Shown: positions 5,041 to 48,497 of the stretch, in pieces | Layout of the letters: every line of letters begins with the position of its first letter | Position numbering within the stretch: the stretch's first letter is position 1 | DNA from: Haloarcula salina | Lineage (GTDB): Archaea > Halobacteriota > Halobacteria > Halobacteriales > Haloarculaceae | Direction: 5' to 3' | Assembly: GCF_010119195.1 (NCBI RefSeq) | Contig: NZ_WRXL01000002.1 | Location: 372,001-436,000, forward strand | DNA length: 64,000 nt | Program-made: the position numbers and the translations under genes | The notes under the pieces: generated by a model | Seen by the model: the letters and a program-made list of their open reading frames with translations, nothing else | Told to the model about the DNA's origin: nothing | Database searches by the model: none

Positions 5041-6183
5041 TTACAGTTCGCCGAGCTTGCGGAGGAGCTGACCGCGGTACTCCTCGTCGGCCTGGACGCC
5101 CTTCAGTTCGAGGACGTTCCGTTCGAGCTTGTCGAGCGCGACGTTGAAGGCGGTCTCGGCCCCGTATCCCTCACCGGAGCCGGCGGCCTGCCCCTTGTTG
5201 GTTCGGAGGCGGATCTGACACTGGATGAGCGGCGTGCCGCGGAGTTTCTCCTTGTGCTCGTGGAACCGGACGTGGGCGTGCTGGACCTGCATCGCCTGGT
5301 ACTTGTCGGCCACCGTCTCGATGTCGGCTCGGATGTCCTCCCGGGAGATGGTGTCGAGGAGGGTGATGTTGGTGATCTGCACGTCCATGTGTTCCTCCTC
5401 CGTGTAGGTCAGCGCCCGGAGCACGTCGGTCTTCGTGAGGATGCCGACGACCGCGCTGTCGTCGTCTTCCGGCGTGACGACGAGGCCGGCGAAGTCGTTT
5501 TCGAGCATTCGAGCCACGGCGTCCTCGACGGAATCGCCCACTCGAACCGTCTCGACGGGGCTGTTCATCACGTCGTACACCGGGAGGTCGAGGACCCGCT
5601 CGATCTCGCCCGCGCGGTCGCCGCGGGTCGCCTTATTCATGTCGCGGACGACCACGTCGACGATGTCGTGGCGGGTAACCATGCCGGTCAGGCTGTCGGT
5701 CTCGTCGAGCACGGGGAGCCGGGAGATGCCGTGCTTCCGGAGGAGATTGACGACTTGCCCGACGTTGGTGTCCTCCGAGACCGTGATGACGTCCTGCGTG
5801 TAGATGTCCTCGACGGTGAGTGCGTCGAGGTTCTCGAGGACGGCGTCGAGGATATCGTCCTCGGTGACGATTCCCCAGAGCTCGCCGGCCTCGAAGACGG
5901 GGGCGAGTTTCACCCCGCCCTCGACGAGGACGCGCGCGACCTCGCGCACGTCGTCGGTGCGCCCGACCTTCGGGGCCGAGCGCGTCATCGCCCCCGCTTT
6001 CGCGTTGTCCTCGACGTGGGACTGGACCAACTGTTTCTGCGTGATAACGCCAGCGTACGCACCGTCGTCCGTGACGATGATGCCCTTGGGGTTCTCGCGC
6101 TCGAAGATAGATCGAACCTTCCCCAGGCGCTTGTTGGCGTCAACCTCGACAAACTCTCTGGTGGCGATATCAGCAATATCCAT
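5041..6183 (-). CDS. Four-CBS-domain protein with a ribosome hibernation factor (HPF/S30AE)-like C-terminal domain
   Basis: The 380-residue protein has four CBS modules in tandem (about 1-58, 62-120, 124-185 and 205-268), i.e. two Bateman modules that in other proteins bind adenine nucleotides. The last about 105 residues are not CBS: they read like the single-domain HPF/YfiA fold, starting MDVQITNITLLDTISREDI and ending with a helix ending ALDKLERNVLEL, the place where HPF proteins carry their conserved AIDLAVDKLERQL-type helix. An energy-sensing ribosome-binding factor is the inference; the CBS assignment is firm, the HPF-like one good but unaided by a profile search. An inverted repeat (CTTCAC at 6188, GTGAAG at 6209) lies between its TATA box and its start. 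Confidence 0.93.
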   Translation of the reverse strand: MDIADIATREFVEVDANKRLGKVRSIFERENPKGIIVTDDGAYAGVITQKQLVQSHVEDNAKAGAMTRSAPKVGRTDDVREVARVLVEGGVKLAPVFEAGELWGIVTEDDILDAVLENLDALTVEDIYTQDVITVSEDTNVGQVVNLLRKHGISRLPVLDETDSLTGMVTRHDIVDVVVRDMNKATRGDRAGEIERVLDLPVYDVMNSPVETVRVGDSVEDAVARMLENDFAGLVVTPEDDDSAVVGILTKTDVLRALTYTEEEHMDVQITNITLLDTISREDIRADIETVADKYQAMQVQHAHVRFHEHKEKLRGTPLIQCQIRLRTNKGQAAGSGEGYGAETAFNVALDKLERNVLELKGVQADEEYRGQLLRKLGEL

Positions 6184-6623: not shown

Positions 6624-6792
6624 CCCGTTTTACAGCCCTAACTCACGCGGCAATTCGTCCAGCAACTGGAAACGCTACCATTGAGTGAATGTCACGATTT
6701 CCCACAATAGGGCTACCGAGCGCCCAATCCGGCGTATGCCGTCACCTCCCACAGTAGCTATATGTGTCAGCCGAGAGTTGCATCGACCAGCC

Positions 6793-7284
6793 ATGACTGA
6801 CACTATCCCGACACCTCACATCGAGCTCTACGTCCGGTCGATGCTCCCCGACGGTGCCCACGAACGCCAGGAGGAGGTCATCGACCGCCTCGATACGCTC
6901 GAAGAGAACGACCAGATCGCGAGCTTCAACGTCATCGTCTGGGGCAAGCAGATCGCTCCGCAGTCGGCCGCCGCCGGAACGGCGGAAGGGCAGTTCATCT
7001 TGAACCGCGTCGCCGAGTTCAAGCAGTGGGCGCTCTCGAACAACGTCTCGTTCGAGTCGTTCTATCAGCGCACGCAGGTGGATTCCGAGGCCGCCGAGTC
7101 GGCCTACGACGCGATGACGCTCCCCGTCATGGGTCTCGCCGAGTACGACGGTGACGAGCTCGCCCACGTCGCGCCCTGCACCAAGGGCGACACGGTCCAC
7201 ACCATCGTCGACCGTCTCGAACGCCTCGAAGCGGGGCAGCCGCCCGCGCTCGAACAGGAGCGACGCGGCGTCAGCGTGGTCTAG
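6793..7284 (+). CDS. Conserved haloarchaeal protein, HTH-family type, function unknown
   Basis: 163 residues beginning MTDTIPTPHIELYVRS. The segment ERQEEVIDRLDTLEENDQIASFNVIVWGKQI resembles a family of short haloarchaeal proteins annotated as HTH-domain proteins, but I see no convincing helix-turn-helix and make no DNA-binding claim. The ATG at 6793 is chosen over an upstream in-frame ATG at 6685 because the extra 36 residues are basic and unlike haloarchaeal coding sequence, and a TATA-like AGCTATATG stands just upstream of 6793. Its TAG stop shares the tetranucleotide CTAG with the convergent gene downstream. Confidence 0.85.
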   Translation: MTDTIPTPHIELYVRSMLPDGAHERQEEVIDRLDTLEENDQIASFNVIVWGKQIAPQSAAAGTAEGQFILNRVAEFKQWALSNNVSFESFYQRTQVDSEAAESAYDAMTLPVMGLAEYDGDELAHVAPCTKGDTVHTIVDRLERLEAGQPPALEQERRGVSVV

Positions 7285-7640
7285 TCCGCGGTCTCCGCTC
7301 GAATCGTCTCGACGTAGGGACCGAACGACTCCGCCCCCTCGAGCATCGTCAGTACCTCCTCCGGTTCGACCGCCAGTTCGTAGGCCGGTCGCCCCTTCCC
7401 CGTCGCCGACTCCGTCCGCGCTTTCGTCAACAGGCCAGCGTCGGCGAGCGTCCGGAGCGCCGCGATGATTTCCTGCCGCTCGACGCCACCGAATGGCTCT
7501 CGCTCGAGGTCGTCGAGGTGTGCCTTCGCCGTCTGGGCCACGTCGTAGGAGTGTACCGGCGTCTCTCCCGCGACGGTCAGTTCGACGACCGAGAGCAGGA
7601 CGAACTGTTCGAACGAGTCGGCCGTGTCGAGGCTGTCCAT
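7281..7640 (-). CDS. Probable winged-helix transcription regulator
   Basis: 119 residues. The central region (LRTLADAGLLTKARTESATGK and GRPAYELAVEPEEVL) has the recognition-helix-plus-wing look of PadR/MarR-like or haloarchaeal wHTH regulators, with a GKGRPAY turn typical of a wing. The start ATG at 7640 follows from the conserved-looking beginning MDSLDTADSFEQFVLL; the reading frame stays open upstream without haloarchaeal protein character. It converges with the 6793-7284 gene and overlaps it by four bases. Target genes are unknown. Confidence 0.8.
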   Translation of the reverse strand: MDSLDTADSFEQFVLLSVVELTVAGETPVHSYDVAQTAKAHLDDLEREPFGGVERQEIIAALRTLADAGLLTKARTESATGKGRPAYELAVEPEEVLTMLEGAESFGPYVETIRAETAD

Positions 7641-7698
7641 ACCTGTCACTGTCAGGGTTTCATCAAGAAAGTTCTGGAAGGTGAAACGAGCCAGCGAC

Positions 7699-8442
7699 TC
7701 ACCCGTTCGGACGCCGCCTGCCGCGCTTCGGATGCTTCGAGACGTACACCGGCGTCGGAAACACCGCCTCGACGAGTCGCCGCCCGAGCCGCGAGGAAAA
7801 CGCCAGTTCGAGCGGCTCTGCGAACGTCTCCAGTAACCGCTGTTTCCCGTTCGACGCGTCGAGATCGAGGTCAAGCAGGTCTCCGGATCGGTACTCCACG
7901 GTCTCGAAGTACCTGCTCAGTTCCCTGCGGACGGTGATCGACCACACCGGGTGGTACGCCTCCCTGTACCAGCCCTCGCCGCGCTCGTACTTCTGGTCGT
8001 ACGGCCGGGCCACACGGCCGCCGATCGACTCCGGTAACCACGGCATCCCCAGCGGATACCCGTGCCCGTCGCCCGGCCAAGCGCGGTTCGGACAGATCGA
8101 GATGAACACGCCGTCGTCAGAGAGGACGCGCGCGGTGTCGGCGATGAGCGCCTCCTCGTCGGGGACGTGCTCGAACACCATGTTCGAGACGATGGCGTCG
8201 ACGCTGTCGTCCGGAAGCGGAATCTCCGTCCCGTCGCCTCTGATAAGATCGCAGTCGCGATCCGTCGCGTCCTCGTCGAAGTCGATGTCGAGTACGATCG
8301 CCCGACAGCCGATCGCGTCCGCCAGCGCCGACGCTATCTTGCCGTCTTTCGCGCCGATGTCGAGGAGCACTGAATCCTCGTCCAGTCGCTCCGAATCGGC
8401 GAGCGCCGACCGATACAGCTGTTTGAAGACTGTCGATGTCAT
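7699..8442 (-). CDS. Class I SAM-dependent methyltransferase
   Basis: 247 residues with the Rossmann-like methyltransferase core: motif I LLDIGAKDGKIASAL near 27-41, the acidic end of strand 2 (IVLDIDF), motif post-I GDGTEIPLPDDSVDAIVSNM near 69-88 and a following EHVPDEEALIADTARVLSDDG segment. This is the Methyltransf_11 type, usually acting on small molecules or lipids. The substrate is not inferable. It is separated by 58 bases from the regulator gene downstream on the same strand and may be co-transcribed with it. A perfect hairpin lies about 80 bases upstream of the start. Confidence 0.9.
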   Translation of the reverse strand: MTSTVFKQLYRSALADSERLDEDSVLLDIGAKDGKIASALADAIGCRAIVLDIDFDEDATDRDCDLIRGDGTEIPLPDDSVDAIVSNMVFEHVPDEEALIADTARVLSDDGVFISICPNRAWPGDGHGYPLGMPWLPESIGGRVARPYDQKYERGEGWYREAYHPVWSITVRRELSRYFETVEYRSGDLLDLDLDASNGKQRLLETFAEPLELAFSSRLGRRLVEAVFPTPVYVSKHPKRGRRRPNG

Positions 8443-8915
8443 GTCGTGGGGTAGCGAGAGCCGCCGACTGCGGTCTGCTTGATGCGCTACTCAATCGGGA
8501 GCCCCTATCACTATCCGTCACTTATCCACATAAGTGGGTAATAAGGTTCGTGGGACAGATGGGCGATATGGAGCCCGTAACCGCGAAACCACACATTAAG
8601 CCGACCAAACTTCGATATCTCTAGATGTGTCGCAGACACCTTCAAAAGCCCGTCCGTCCTGCGTATCTGTTCCATTACCGACTCGCGTCCACGCTGTCGT
8701 GACTCGAACGCACACCGTTCGCTCGCGAAGAGTCGATAGAACGAGTCCGAACAGATCGTGACACGAACCGAGACTCGCGACGTTCTCCGGTGACATCCAC
8801 AAAATGGGTCGGACGGATTGTGAACCGAATGAAGATCCGCGTCGCTCGCCTTACAGGGTTCAAATCGCCCTCACGCACGATTTCGTCGCTCGCGGGATGC
8901 TCGCGACAGAATGAG
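8443..8915. other. Intergenic region without a convincing gene
   Basis: About 470 bases between the methyltransferase and tRNA-Val. It holds a perfect hairpin (CACTTAT, CCAC, ATAAGTG; 8519-8536), a fragment resembling the 3' end of a tRNA (8805-8827) and a T-arm-like string near 8857-8873 in the opposite orientation. Short open frames here lack haloarchaeal codon character. I see no gene. Confidence 0.6.
8519..8536. promoter_or_regulatory. Perfect 7-base inverted repeat upstream of the methyltransferase gene
   Basis: CACTTAT and ATAAGTG flank a CCAC spacer, 77-94 bases upstream of the methyltransferase start at 8442. It may be an operator or a structured 5' element; sequence does not decide. 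Confidence 0.35.
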
Positions 8916-8990
8916 TGGGTTCGGGCGGATTTGAACCGCCGGCCTCCTCCATGTCAAGGAGGTGTCATAACCGACCTAGACCACGAACCC
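8916..8990 (-). tRNA. tRNA-Val (anticodon GAC)
   Basis: Read on the minus strand, the acceptor arms GGGTTCG and CGAACCC pair perfectly, the D arm begins GTCTAGGTCGG, the anticodon stem CCTCC/GGAGG encloses the loop TTGACAT with anticodon GAC, and the T arm is GGCGG TTCAAAT CCGCC. Discriminator base A at 8916. CCA is not encoded. No intron. Confidence 0.95.
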
Positions 8991-9108
8991 TCACTGCGAG
9001 GTACACCTCATTGTATCCCGGGGGTATAATTGAAGGTTTCGAATTCGGTATCGCCACGGCGTCTGTTGATTGGCCCCACACCCGCCTCGGAGACGTACCG
9101 GCCCGATA

Positions 9109-9138
9109 GGCTTAAGTCGATGTACGGATTTGTACATC
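9109..9138 (+). promoter_or_regulatory. trp operon promoter with TGTAC/GTACA inverted repeat (TRP-box-like)
   Basis: A TATA-like GCTTAAG (about 9110-9116) is followed directly by a perfect 7-base inverted repeat, GATGTAC (9119-9125), spacer GGATTT, GTACATC (9132-9138), which covers the expected transcription start about 30 bases before the trpD ATG. The half-sites match TGTAC of the TGTACA TRP box bound by the archaeal repressor TrpY in Methanothermobacter. Repression of trpDFEG through this site is an inference. Confidence 0.6.
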
Positions 9139-9168
9139 ACAACACGAAAAAGTCCATTGGTGAATACA

Positions 9169-10164
9169 ATGAAGGAGTATATCGAACGCGTCACCGACGG
9201 AGAGGACCTGACACAGGAAGAAGCGCGCCGCGTCGCGACGACCGTCTTCGACGACGCGACCGACGCTCAGATCGGTGCGTTGCTGACGGCGCTGCGGGCG
9301 AAAGGAGAGACCGAAGCCGAGATCGCCGGCTTCGCGGAGGGGATGCGCGACGCTGCGCGGACCATCCGACCCGACCGCGAGGGGATGGTCGACACCTGCG
9401 GGACGGGCGGCGATGACTACAACACGATCAACGTCTCGACGACGAGCGCGATCGTCGCGGCGGGGGCGGGCGTTCCGATCGCCAAGCACGGCAACTACTC
9501 CGTGTCGTCGGCCTCGGGGAGCGCCGACGTGCTCGAAGAGGTCGGCGTCGACATCGAGGCCGAACCCGAAGACGTCGAGGAGACCATCGAGCGCGAGGGC
9601 ATCGGCTTCATGCTCGCGCCCGTGTTCCACCCGGCGATGAAGGCCGTCATCGGTCCGCGCAAGGAACTCGGAATCCGGACCGTCTTCAACATCCTCGGGC
9701 CGCTGACCAACCCCGCCGACGCGGACGCGCAGGTCCTCGGCGTCTACGACCCCGACCTCGTCCCGGTCATGGCCGAGGCGCTGGCCCGTCTGGAGGTGGA
9801 ACGCGCGCTCGTCGTCCACGGCAGCGGCCTCGACGAGATCGCCATCCACGGCGAGACGGCCATCGCCGAGGTCACCGGCGACCGGATCGCGGAGTACACC
9901 ATCACGCCCGAGGACATCGGCCTGGAGACCCACGACATCGAGGACATCGCGGGCGGCGAGCCCGCGGAGAACGCGGCCGACCTCCGCGGTATCGTCTCCG
10001 GCGAGCTCACCGGGGCGAAGCGGGACATCATCCTCGCCAACGCCGGCGCGGCCATCTACGTCGCCGGCGTCGCCGACACCCACGAGGAGGGCGTCGAGCT
10101 GGCGCGAGACGCGATCGAGTCCGGCGACGCCGCGGCGAAGCTCGACGACCTGGTCGGGGCATGA
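9169..10164 (+). CDS. trpD: Anthranilate phosphoribosyltransferase
   Basis: Transfers phosphoribosyl from PRPP to anthranilate, the second step of tryptophan synthesis. 331 residues with the family signature DTCGTGGDDYNTINVSTTSA near 74-93 (PRPP/Mg binding) and KHGNYSVSSASGSADVLEEVG. The ATG at 9169 starts the canonical helix MKEYIERVTDGEDLTQEEA; the upstream extension of the frame runs through the promoter and is rejected. First gene of trpDFEG; its TGA overlaps the trpF ATG by four bases, indicating translational coupling. Confidence 0.97.
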   Translation: MKEYIERVTDGEDLTQEEARRVATTVFDDATDAQIGALLTALRAKGETEAEIAGFAEGMRDAARTIRPDREGMVDTCGTGGDDYNTINVSTTSAIVAAGAGVPIAKHGNYSVSSASGSADVLEEVGVDIEAEPEDVEETIEREGIGFMLAPVFHPAMKAVIGPRKELGIRTVFNILGPLTNPADADAQVLGVYDPDLVPVMAEALARLEVERALVVHGSGLDEIAIHGETAIAEVTGDRIAEYTITPEDIGLETHDIEDIAGGEPAENAADLRGIVSGELTGAKRDIILANAGAAIYVAGVADTHEEGVELARDAIESGDAAAKLDDLVGA

Positions 10165-10805
10165 CGCGCGTGAAGATCTGTGGCGTCACCGACGACGAGG
10201 ACCGCGACGCCGTCGTCGCGGCCGGAGCCGACGCCGTCGGCGTCATCCACGGCGTCCCAGTAGACACGCCCCGCGAAGTCGACGAAGCGACGGCGGCAGA
10301 CCTGGTCGACGGCGTCCCGCCGCTCGTGACCAGCGTCCTCGTGACGATGCCGACGACGGTCCAGGAGGCCGTCACGCGCGTCGACGCGGTCGAACCGGAC
10401 GCGGTGCAGGTCCACGACGGGCTCTCGCCGGCGGAACTGGGCGCGCTCGACAGCCGGATCACCCAGTCCATCGTCGCCGTCGTCTCGGCGGACGCGCCCG
10501 ACATCGCGGACTACGCGGCCCACGCCGACGCTCTGCTGGTCGACTCCGTCGACGCCGACGGCGGCGGCGGCACGGGCGAGACTCACGACTGGGAGCGCAC
10601 GCGCGACCTCGTCGACTCGCTCGACGTTCCGGTCGTCCTCGCCGGCGGACTGACGCCCGAGAACGTCGCGGCCGCCGTCGAAACGGTCGACCCGTTCGCC
10701 GTCGACGTGGCCAGCGGCGTCGAGTCCGAGGGCGGCCGGAAGGATCACGACGCCGTCGAGCGGTTCGTCCGCAACGCGACCCGGGCGACGGAGGGGTCGG
10801 CATGA
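10161..10805 (+). CDS. trpF: Phosphoribosylanthranilate isomerase
   Basis: Amadori rearrangement of N-(5'-phosphoribosyl)anthranilate to CdRP, third step of tryptophan synthesis. A 214-residue TIM barrel beginning MTRVKICGVTDDEDRDAV, the family's N-terminal motif with the catalytic cysteine (C7). Near the C-terminus VVLAGGLTPENVAAAVETVDPFAVDVASGVES holds the phosphate-binding loops and the catalytic aspartate. ATGA overlaps at both ends (trpD upstream, trpE downstream) place it firmly in the operon. Confidence 0.97.
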   Translation: MTRVKICGVTDDEDRDAVVAAGADAVGVIHGVPVDTPREVDEATAADLVDGVPPLVTSVLVTMPTTVQEAVTRVDAVEPDAVQVHDGLSPAELGALDSRITQSIVAVVSADAPDIADYAAHADALLVDSVDADGGGGTGETHDWERTRDLVDSLDVPVVLAGGLTPENVAAAVETVDPFAVDVASGVESEGGRKDHDAVERFVRNATRATEGSA

Positions 10806-12448
10806 GTCTCGACCTCTCCCGCGAGGCGTTCGTCGAGCAGGCCGAAGCGGACCGGCCAGTCGTCGTTCGGACAGCCGCCGAACTCGACGCGGACGTGGAG
10901 CCGCTCGCCGCCTACGCGGCGCTGAGCGGGCGCACCGGCGACGCGGCCGAGAGCGACTACACGTTCCTACTGGAGAGCGCCGAGAAGGTCGCCTCCAGCG
11001 ACCCGGACGGCGCGTTCGCCCCGGAGACCGACGACCGCCACGCCCGCTTCTCGTTCGTCGGCTACGACCCGCGGGCGGTCGTCACCGTCACCGGCGACGA
11101 CAGCGAGGTACAGGTCCTCGACGAGCGCTACGCCGACCTCGTGACGACGGACGGCGGCGACGTGGTCGACGACCTCCGCGCCGCGATGCCGGACGTGACC
11201 CTCCGGAACTTCCCGGAGATGGACCGCCAGCACCTCGAAGGCGGCCTCGTCGGCTTCCTCTCGTACGACGCCGTCTACGACCTCTGGCTCGACGAGGTTG
11301 GCCTCGACCGCCCGGACTCGCGGTTCCCGGACGCCCAGTTCGTCCTGACCACGTCGACGGTCCGGTTCGACCACGTCGAGGAGACCGTCTCGCTGGTGTT
11401 CACGCCCGTCGTCAGACAGGACGAAGACGCCGGCGAACGCTACGACGAACTGGTCGCCGAGGCCGAACGCGTCGACGCCGTGCTCTCGGACCTCGGCCCG
11501 CTCTCGACCGGCGGCTTCCGCCGCGAACGCGAAGTAGCCGGCCCGCAGGACGAGTACGAGGCCGCCGTCGAGCGCGCCAAGGAGTACGTCCTCTCGGGCG
11601 ACATCTACCAGGGCGTCATCTCGCGGACCCGCGAGCTGTACGGCGAGGTCGATCCGCTCGGCTTCTACGAGGCGCTCAGGGCGGTGAACCCATCGCCGTA
11701 CATGTACCTGCTCGGTTACGACGACCTGACCATCGTCGGCGCGAGCCCGGAGACGCTGGTCTCCGTGGCCGGTGACCACGTCGTCTCGAACCCCATCGCG
11801 GGCACGTGCCCGCGAGGGAACTCCCCGGTCGAGGACCGCCGCCTCGCCGGCGAGATGCTCGCGGACGGCAAGGAGCGCGCCGAGCACACGATGCTCGTTG
11901 ACCTGGCACGCAACGACGTTCGCAGGGTCGCCGAGGCCGGCAGCGTCCGCGTCCAGGAGTTCATGAACGTCCTGAAGTACAGCCACGTCCAGCACATCGA
12001 ATCGACGGTTACGGGCCGGCTCTCGCCCGAGAAGGACGCTTTCGACGCCGCCCGCGCGACGTTCCCCGCCGGAACGCTCTCGGGCGCACCGAAGATTCGA
12101 GCCATGGAGATCATCGACGAGCTCGAACGCTCGCCGCGCGGGCCATACGGCGGCGGCGTCGGCTACTTCGACTGGGGCGGCGACGCAGACTTCGCCATCG
12201 TCATCCGCTCGGCCACCATCGAGGACACCGACGAGTCCGACCGCATCACGGTCCAGGCCGGCGCGGGCATCGTCGCCGACTCGGACCCCGAGAGCGAGTA
12301 CGTCGAGACCGAACAGAAGATGGACGGCGTGCTGACGGCGCTGGAGCGCATCGAGGATGACCGGTCGACCGACGGATTCGATAGAACCGACGGCGACGAG
12401 GCCGACACGACCGACGGCGACGAGCACGCCGGGGAGGTGCCCCGATGA
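10802..12448 (+). CDS. trpE: Anthranilate synthase component I
   Basis: Converts chorismate and ammonia to anthranilate; works with TrpG (glutaminase). 548 residues with the chorismate-binding domain in the C-terminal half: PIAGTCPRGNSPVEDRRLAGEM, MLVDLARNDVRRVAEAGSVRV and FPAGTLSGAPKIRAMEIIDE. The N-terminal part has the TrpE-type regulatory region (feedback by tryptophan is the rule in the family). An acidic, Asp/Thr-rich tail of about 25 residues follows the catalytic domain. Overlaps trpF and trpG by four bases each. Confidence 0.97.
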   Translation: MSLDLSREAFVEQAEADRPVVVRTAAELDADVEPLAAYAALSGRTGDAAESDYTFLLESAEKVASSDPDGAFAPETDDRHARFSFVGYDPRAVVTVTGDDSEVQVLDERYADLVTTDGGDVVDDLRAAMPDVTLRNFPEMDRQHLEGGLVGFLSYDAVYDLWLDEVGLDRPDSRFPDAQFVLTTSTVRFDHVEETVSLVFTPVVRQDEDAGERYDELVAEAERVDAVLSDLGPLSTGGFRREREVAGPQDEYEAAVERAKEYVLSGDIYQGVISRTRELYGEVDPLGFYEALRAVNPSPYMYLLGYDDLTIVGASPETLVSVAGDHVVSNPIAGTCPRGNSPVEDRRLAGEMLADGKERAEHTMLVDLARNDVRRVAEAGSVRVQEFMNVLKYSHVQHIESTVTGRLSPEKDAFDAARATFPAGTLSGAPKIRAMEIIDELERSPRGPYGGGVGYFDWGGDADFAIVIRSATIEDTDESDRITVQAGAGIVADSDPESEYVETEQKMDGVLTALERIEDDRSTDGFDRTDGDEADTTDGDEHAGEVPR

Positions 12449-13068
12449 GCGCGTCGCGACCGGCCGGCGAGGACGCGGTCAGGGACGACCTGCGGGTCCT
12501 GTTCGTCGACAACTTCGACTCCTTTACGTACAACCTCGTGGAGTACGTCTCCGAACACGCCGAGACCGAAGTCGTCCGGAACACGGCGTCGCTCGACGAC
12601 GTGAGAGCGTTCGACCCCGACGCCATCGTGCTCTCGCCCGGCCCGGGTCACCCGAAGAACGAGCGCGACGTGGGCGTCACGCTCGACGTGCTCCGCGAGA
12701 TCAGTCCCGACGTGCCGACCCTCGGAGTCTGCCTCGGTCTCGAATCGGCGGTGTACGCCTACGGCGGCACCATCGGTCGCGCGCCGGAGCCTATCCACGG
12801 CAAGGCCTTCCCCATCGATCACGACGGCGAAGGCGTCTTCCGCGGCCTCGAACAGGGCTTTCAGGGCGGGCGCTATCACTCGCTGGTCGCAGAGGGCGTC
12901 CCTGACGAGTTCGTCGTCAGCGCGACGACTGAGACGGCGGACGGCACGGAACTGGTGATGGGCGTCCGTCACCGCGAGCATCCCATCGAGGCCGTCCAGT
13001 TCCACCCGGAGTCCGTCCTGACTTCGGTCGGTCACGACGTGATCCGGAACTTCCTCGCTGGACTCTAG
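12445..13068 (+). CDS. trpG: Anthranilate synthase component II (glutamine amidotransferase)
   Basis: Class I glutamine amidotransferase supplying ammonia to TrpE. 207 residues; VDNFDSFTYNLVEYV at the N-terminus, catalytic cysteine in LGVCLGLE (C96) and the His-Glu pair in QFHPES near 187-191. The oxyanion-strand motif LSPGPGHPKNERD is present. Last gene of trpDFEG. Its TAG stop shares the tetranucleotide CTAG with the convergent small membrane gene. In haloarchaea trpCBA is a separate operon, and it is not in this window. Confidence 0.97.
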   Translation: MSASRPAGEDAVRDDLRVLFVDNFDSFTYNLVEYVSEHAETEVVRNTASLDDVRAFDPDAIVLSPGPGHPKNERDVGVTLDVLREISPDVPTLGVCLGLESAVYAYGGTIGRAPEPIHGKAFPIDHDGEGVFRGLEQGFQGGRYHSLVAEGVPDEFVVSATTETADGTELVMGVRHREHPIEAVQFHPESVLTSVGHDVIRNFLAGL

Positions 13069-47075: not shown

Positions 47076-48497
47076 GTGAAATACGACCAGGCCCGCTGGA
47101 CCGACGACGGCGACGACCGCTATGAGCCGCTGCTCTCGGAGAAGGCGAACGAGACGGTCGAGATCGAGGACGCGGCGTTACCCGACGACTTGACGCGGGA
47201 TTCGCTCACGCTCCCGGACCCGGCCGAGCCGGAACTGGCGCGTCACTACACGCGCCTCTCGCAGATGAACTACGGCGTCGAGAGCGGGCCGTTCCCGCTC
47301 GGCTCCTGTACGATGAAGTACAACCCCTCGTTCACGGAGGACGTGGCCGCTCGACCCGACGCCGCGATCCACCCGGACCGCCCAGACGCGACGGTCCAGG
47401 GGACGCTAGCGCTGTGTCACCGCCTGCAGGACTACCTCGGTCGCATCGGCGGAATGGACGCCGTCACCCTCCAGCCGCCGGCGGGCGCGGCCGGCGAGTT
47501 CACCGGCATCGAAATCGCGAAGGCCTACCACGAGGCCAACGACGAGGAGCGCCGGGAGGTCGTCATTCCGGACTCCGCCCACGGGACGAACTTCGCGACG
47601 GCGGCGATGGCCGGCTACGAGGTGGTCGAGCTGCCGAGCGACGACGACGGCCGCGTCGACACCGAGGCGCTCGCCGCCGCGGTCGGCGACGACACCGCCG
47701 CGCTGATGCTCACGAACCCCAACACGCTCGGGCTGTTCGAACGCGACATCGAGGAGATCGCGGACCTCGTCCACGACGCGGGCGGACTGCTGTACTACGA
47801 CGGCGCGAACCTCAACGCGCTGCTGGGGCGCGCTCGTCCCGGCGACATGGGCTTCGACGTGATGCACTACAACGTCCACAAGACGTTCGCCACGCCCCAC
47901 GGCGGGGGTGGGCCAGGAGCCGGGCCGGTCGGCGTCCGCGAGGGGCTGGCGCGGTTCCTGCCGAATCCCCACGTCAGGGAGCGCGATGGGAACTACGAGT
48001 ACTACGAGCCAGAGGCGTCGATCGGCAAGGTCCACGGCTTCTACGGCAACTGGCCGGTGCTGGTCAAGGCGTTCGCCTACATCGCCCGACTCGGCGACGC
48101 CGGCCTGCGAGACGCCAGCGCCAAGGCCGTGCTGAACGCGAACTACCTCGCCGAGCAGATCGACTACGACGTGCCCTTCGGCCCGTTCCACCACGAGTTC
48201 GTCGCGAGCGCGGGCGAGCAGGACGCGGCCGACGCAGCGAAGCGGATGCTCGACTACGGCGTCCACCCGCCGACGACGAAGTGGCCCGAAATCGTCGACG
48301 AGGCGCTGATGACCGAGCCGACCGAGGGCGAGACGAAGCGGTCGCTCGACCAGCTCGCGGCCGCGTTCGACGCCGTGGCCGCCGAGGACGACGAGACGCT
48401 CGCCGCGGCGCCGTCTCGGCCCGCGGCCAGGCGCATCGACCAGGTCAGCGCCGCCAGGAACCCTCGGCTCTCCTGGCAGGCCCTCGACGACGCGTAG
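47076..48497 (+). CDS. gcvPB: Glycine dehydrogenase (decarboxylating) subunit 2
   Basis: 473 residues; PLP-dependent half of glycine decarboxylase. The pyridoxal lysine is K269 in MHYNVHKTFATPHGGGGPGAG, and GSCTMKYNP and PPAGAAGEFTG precede it. The GTG at 47076 is supported by GGAGGT (47063-47068) seven bases upstream; the GTG at 47067 lies within that site. End of the gcvT-gcvH-gcvPA-gcvPB cluster. Confidence 0.95.
   Translation: MKYDQARWTDDGDDRYEPLLSEKANETVEIEDAALPDDLTRDSLTLPDPAEPELARHYTRLSQMNYGVESGPFPLGSCTMKYNPSFTEDVAARPDAAIHPDRPDATVQGTLALCHRLQDYLGRIGGMDAVTLQPPAGAAGEFTGIEIAKAYHEANDEERREVVIPDSAHGTNFATAAMAGYEVVELPSDDDGRVDTEALAAAVGDDTAALMLTNPNTLGLFERDIEEIADLVHDAGGLLYYDGANLNALLGRARPGDMGFDVMHYNVHKTFATPHGGGGPGAGPVGVREGLARFLPNPHVRERDGNYEYYEPEASIGKVHGFYGNWPVLVKAFAYIARLGDAGLRDASAKAVLNANYLAEQIDYDVPFGPFHHEFVASAGEQDAADAAKRMLDYGVHPPTTKWPEIVDEALMTEPTEGETKRSLDQLAAAFDAVAAEDDETLAAAPSRPAARRIDQVSAARNPRLSWQALDDA

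Follow-up and report, generated by a model that had tools for sequence, protein, structure and literature searches.

What controls the trpDFEG operon of Haloarcula salina, and is the inverted repeat at its promoter the site through which that control is exerted? The window, by which we mean the whole 64,000-nucleotide stretch of DNA that was analysed, carries trpD, trpF, trpE and trpG in that order and with overlapping ends. Ahead of them lies an inverted repeat, GATGTACGGATTTGTACATC, whose 7+7 arms match perfectly and are separated by 6 bases; it fills positions 9119-9138 exactly, beginning 8 bp past the start of a TATA-like CTTAAG and ending 30 bp ahead of the trpD ATG. Its half-sites are ATGTAC (9120-9125) and GTACAT (9132-9137), with the GTAC cores phased by 10 bp. 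From its position we take CTTAAG to be the TATA box of trpDFEG, and BRE-like bases are found immediately 5′ of it. The palindrome is only part of the operator, which comprises a series of GTAC half-sites with ∼10-bp phasing that includes a third conserved half-site, the core of which in the source genome, GTCCAT (9152-9157), lies 20 bp beyond the second. The features of the locus are as follows.

9111..9116, plus strand: TATA-box-like CTTAAG of the trpDFEG promoter, conserved as GACAGGCTTAAG across the 50 distinct trpD promoters of haloarchaea that were aligned
9119..9138, no strand assigned: putative palindromic operator GATGTAC-N6-GTACATC, based on conservation at trpD loci and a match to a trpC-trained profile
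9138..9151, plus strand: conserved spacer CACAACACGAAAAA from the second to the third half-site, with column conservation of 0.9-1.0 at several positions; possibly initiator or leader sequence
9152..9162, plus strand: third half-site GTCCATTGGTG (consensus GTACATTGGTG), conserved in trpD promoters and in the presumed 5′ leader
9169..10164, plus strand: trpD, which opens the operon and encodes an anthranilate phosphoribosyltransferase of 331 aa, with up to 92% identity to Haloarcula TrpD
10161..10805, plus strand: trpF, assigned by its family as phosphoribosylanthranilate isomerase; overlaps trpD, neighbor kept in 58/59 loci
10802..12448, plus strand: trpE (anthranilate synthase component I), kept in 58/59 loci
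12445..13068, plus strand: trpG (anthranilate synthase glutamine amidotransferase), kept in 58/59 loci

A tRNA-Val(GAC) gene (8915-8990, minus strand) is divergent from trpDFEG, so its promoter falls within the common intergenic region, 9000-9110. Further upstream, a minus-strand gene at 5041-6183 encodes a CBS-domain protein with a C-terminal part resembling a ribosome-hibernation domain, homologs of which lie close to trpD in 31 of the 59 haloarchaeal loci. Two other proteins are also encoded near trpD, an HTH_63 protein (6685-7284, plus strand) and a PadR/Cdc6-like winged-helix protein (7281-7874, minus strand). Both are kept mainly within Haloarcula and therefore do not qualify as an order-wide trp regulator. 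Leader-peptide attenuation finds no place here: the distance from TATA to ATG is ∼30 bp at trpC and ∼55 bp at trpD, too short to hold both a classical leader peptide and a terminator.

In a genome of 3.79 Mb with the G+C content of the source, chance would yield ∼0.003 perfect 7+7 repeats of this type. The inner TGTAC-N6-GTACA is not rare, with ∼0.9 expected versus 2 observed, and hence the repeat by itself is only suggestive and the proof has to be comparative. The second TGTAC-N6-GTACA, at 47307 of the window, is part of a glycine dehydrogenase coding sequence and was set aside as coincidence, and the other one-mismatch palindrome sites of the source genome, when checked, gave no convincing promoters. 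We fetched 59 haloarchaeal trpD loci, with Haloarcula as the closest genus, and counted the operator as kept when each of its three half-sites had at most two mismatches. ATGTAC-N6-GTACAT plus the third half-site was present at the same place in 58 of them, a conservation that rules out a chance palindrome. Only locus L067 departs from this; there, Halomicroarcula rubra has a second copy of trpD, with 73% identity to the query and a badly degraded operator upstream of 6001. The consensus of 50 distinct haloarchaeal trpD promoters is GACAGGCTTAAGTnGATGTACGGATTTGTACATTACAACACGAAnACGTACATTGGTG, in which the key operator columns are conserved at 90-100%, compared to ∼40% just upstream.

The second trp operon carries the same kind of site. 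Specifically, trpCBA of the source genome (contig 7, 95 kb) is preceded by CCTTATGTACACTTCTGTACGTTAGTGTTCAGTAATG, with GTAC half-sites at 0, +10 and +20 between the TATA box and the ATG, and the trpC promoter consensus from ∼70 genomes of the order is AGnCTTATGTACAnATnAGTnCRTTAATGTACARTAATG. When a sequence-only profile, R1, built from trpC promoters alone with the TATA and ATG columns included, was searched against 142 genomes of the order, 136 had the trpC site, among them all 118 of good quality. When R1 was run over the source genome at E≤10, the only matches beyond trpC were in the trpD promoter, where it hit the palindrome and, weakly, the third half-site (9145-9164). Because a profile trained on trpC matches the trpD promoter and nothing else, the two operators are the same element; they have 10-bp phased GTAC boxes in common, at different distances from the TATA box. 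By this measure, the haloarchaeal regulon consists of the two trp operons. The initial annotation had described a perfect repeat just past a TATA box and had proposed a search for the same motif before trpCBA and before the trp genes of relatives; its coordinates were exact, and the motif is indeed present at trpCBA in the source genome and at both trpC and trpD across the order.

We then asked how far the element reaches with a position matrix made from haloarchaeal trpC alone, this time without the TATA and ATG columns, applied to 16-kb trp loci of 20 non-haloarchaeal genomes of the phylum, probably mostly methanogens. In 15 of these 20 loci the top match fell directly before trpC, trpD, trpE or a trpB2-type gene, with scores of 10-25; the peak score in 46 unrelated control loci of 3.3-3.7 kb was 5.6. 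The matrix gave no operator-like match at the 16-kb trp loci of two families, f21 (four loci), which is probably Archaeoglobi, and f30 (one locus). Thus, sequence comparison confirms a predicted TRP-box-type operator that is order-wide in haloarchaea and recurs in variant form in much of the phylum.

Our search for the protein that binds it centered on G018, a reduced and ∼70% complete genome from the same order, which has kept the operator and which was read almost whole. It encodes a 167-aa protein that scores 220 bits against the NCBIfam model TrpY_fam (NF053754; cut-off 180). The protein was reached with a TrpY consensus that served as a query only; its identity was then taken from NCBIfam. 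The gene adjoins hisB and polC and has no GTAC array 5′ of it, and no TrpY-like ORF was found in the 59 haloarchaeal trpD loci (∼6 kb around trpD) or in the 16-kb trp loci, so autoregulation is not apparent. For the source genome, TrpY gave no match in the window, in ∼400 kb read from contig 9 or in a handful of small loci, and was not placed on the viral contigs or plasmids tried. No regulator gene is conserved beside the trp operons in the loci compared. G018 also retains regulators of the Lrp, COG1709, COG1395, DUF7839, CBS-HTH, MBF1 and DtxR types, all of which fit less well than TrpY, and searches of the DUF7839, HTH_3, COG1709-type and DUF4443/PH0730 families gave no good candidate. The TrpY homologs of haloarchaea and of other methanogens are described as unstudied, with functions that cannot be estimated, and in Thermococcus kodakarensis trp is not under the control of TrpY (PMC6737238), so that belonging to the family is in itself no proof of role. 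On balance, we consider it quite probable that a tryptophan-responsive repressor has its operator at the trpD promoter site, the likeliest such repressor being the haloarchaeal TrpY-family protein.

We infer the following course of events. The TrpY-family protein would combine an N-terminal DNA-binding part with an ACT-like amino-acid-binding part. When tryptophan is plentiful, dimers would settle on the GTAC half-sites, which follow the TATA box closely and lie ∼10 bp apart on a single DNA face, and more of the protein would join at the third half-site; the 10-bp phasing, which places the boxes on one face, suits such stepwise assembly. Occupancy would block RNA polymerase recruitment or the start at trpDFEG. 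Since the half-sites lie between the TATA box and the translation start, a bound protein would be expected to interfere with RNA polymerase or with initiation, and not with TBP itself. The corresponding array at trpCBA would switch off the second operon in parallel, and a drop in tryptophan would cause the protein to depart, allowing both operons to be transcribed. Expression data from Halobacterium salinarum are consistent with such a scheme. When aromatic amino acids were left out, the full set of seven trp genes, arranged as trpCBA-OE1472F and trpDFEG, was induced in early exponential phase, in an experiment that did not separate tryptophan from phenylalanine and tyrosine (PMC4162585). Joint induction of the two operons would be expected if one Trp repressor served both. 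The proposal that a halobacterial trp operon is under TrpY-like control, made initially from the repeat, gains support from the motif at both operons, its occurrence before trp operons, trpB2-type genes and TrpP in other lineages of the phylum, the TrpY-family protein in the order and the induction in Halobacterium.

The only archaeal Trp repressor that we found characterized in the literature is the TrpY of one methanogen, Methanothermobacter. Xie and Reeve are said to have given, in 2005, TGTACA as the TRP box consensus, Karr et al. reportedly found in 2008 that Methanothermobacter TrpY also represses trpB2, and papers from the Reeve laboratory are said to describe cooperative assembly of TrpY. 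The trpE promoter has TRP boxes to which the protein binds (PMC6737238). Similar to the Methanothermobacter thermautotrophicus system (trpEGCFBAD, trpB2), the haloarchaeal sites have TGTACA-type half-sites that overlap a trp promoter, their targets are trp operons, joined by trpB2-type genes in relatives, and a TrpY-family protein is encoded in one genome of the order (G018). Unlike that system, haloarchaeal trp is split into two operons, trpCBA and trpDFEG, the half-sites form a 10-bp phased array 3′ of the TATA box, and the sites of other phylum lineages also precede TrpP and an aroA′-type aldolase. Moreover, trpY is adjacent, divergent and autoregulated in M. thermautotrophicus, whereas no trpY lies beside the operon in the haloarchaeal loci compared and autoregulation was not seen for the G018 gene; a trpY beside the trp operon is the Methanothermobacter arrangement and not a defining trait of the family. 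The trp operator thus appears to be a widely conserved variant of the TrpY/TRP-box system, in which TrpY would bind and respond to tryptophan. Tar (TK0271) of T. kodakarensis likewise has a palindromic site, at operons for aromatic amino acids that include trp. However, Tar is an activator and its site, TGGACA-N8-TGTCCA, lies upstream of BRE/TATA (PMC6737238), whereas ATGTAC-N6-GTACAT at the trpD promoter differs in sequence and lies downstream of TATA, as expected for repression.

The main rival is that another regulator, such as an Lrp/AsnC-family protein (LrpA2 or Lrp) acting as a sensor of aromatic amino acids, binds the same operator and that TrpY is otherwise employed in haloarchaea. The haloarchaeal LrpA1, LrpA2 and Lrp proteins are indeed linked to amino acid regulation, and LrpA2, which responds to a lack of aromatic amino acids, rose 14.9-fold without them in Halobacterium and was proposed as the regulator on expression grounds (PMC4162585). 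A haloarchaeal Lrp (NF041396) is also retained in the reduced genome, and TrpY homologs may have other roles (PMC6737238). Yet the operator sequence and its targets, trp operons and trpB2-type genes, fit the TRP boxes of TrpY, and an open-access paper on the Halobacterium proteins LrpA1 and Lrp mentions neither trp genes as targets nor a GTAC-type site (PMC2894021). We therefore regard binding by such a regulator as unlikely. Much less credible still is a near-universal archaeal regulator, that is, an HTH protein of the COG1709, COG1395 or DUF7839 type. A COG1709-type protein does occur in every operator-bearing genome tested, but it has a near-identical recognition helix in an operator-free family, DUF7839 is absent from two operator-bearing genomes, G151 and the only 78% complete G172, and the COG1709 and DUF7839 genes are without the operator. 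In addition, a published list places COG1709 as well as COG1395 among the proteins specific to all archaea (PMC1852104). Finally, the conserved block lies between TATA and start, and the profile has TATA and ATG columns, as would suit a basal promoter or initiator plus the leaderless-start signature of strong haloarchaeal promoters without any regulator site, but this is very improbable given that no other promoter of the source genome matches at E≤10, that the matrix without TATA and ATG still picks trp promoters in distant lineages, and that the phased GTAC boxes common to trpC and trpD lie at unequal distances from TATA.

Assignment of the operator to TrpY would extend the TRP-box type of control over most sampled lineages of the phylum. 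It would also give the haloarchaeal TrpY homologs a concrete target in genetically tractable organisms, and the trpC and trpD promoters are predicted to be a natural tryptophan-repressible pair.

To look beyond the trp loci, a merged profile, R2, was run over 14 whole non-haloarchaeal genomes. R2 is weak, with many E-values of 0.1-1, so individual sites are only suggestive and the weight rests on their agreement on tryptophan genes. Its sites precede trpC-trpB, trpB, trpB2-type genes, TrpP (PF17099), an aroA′-type DeoC/LacD aldolase and one lactate-permease-like gene. In L361 (G195:C1:1328447) an operator-like site stands before a gene for a TrpP-type tryptophan transporter (PF17099), followed by an ABC ATPase; L372 (G162:C1:1295721) has the same arrangement with a TrpP-resembling ORF that lacks a Pfam match. 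Tryptophan uptake is thus probably part of the regulon in these lineages. The site in L353 (G214:C1:1417535) precedes the gene for a DeoC/LacD aldolase similar to OE1472F/aroA′, which catalyzes the entry into aromatic synthesis in archaea. Taken together, we lean toward a phylum-wide Trp regulon that predates Halobacteria, in which a TrpY-family repressor would act on phased GTAC arrays at trp operons, trpB2, the aroA′-type entry step and TrpP uptake, with trpY uncoupled from the operon and from autoregulation.

Two further observations come from these lineages. Within the trp operon of the operator-free family f21, a stand-alone ACT-like protein is encoded (L157, 4529-4903, minus strand), which may reflect a different kind of Trp control. 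In L359 (G153:C1:1254440), three phased GTAC boxes (ATGTACATAAAAGTACAATCATGTACA) at ∼1501 lie ∼40 bp before the lactate-permease-like gene (PF02652), which is possibly a further regulon member or a chance match.
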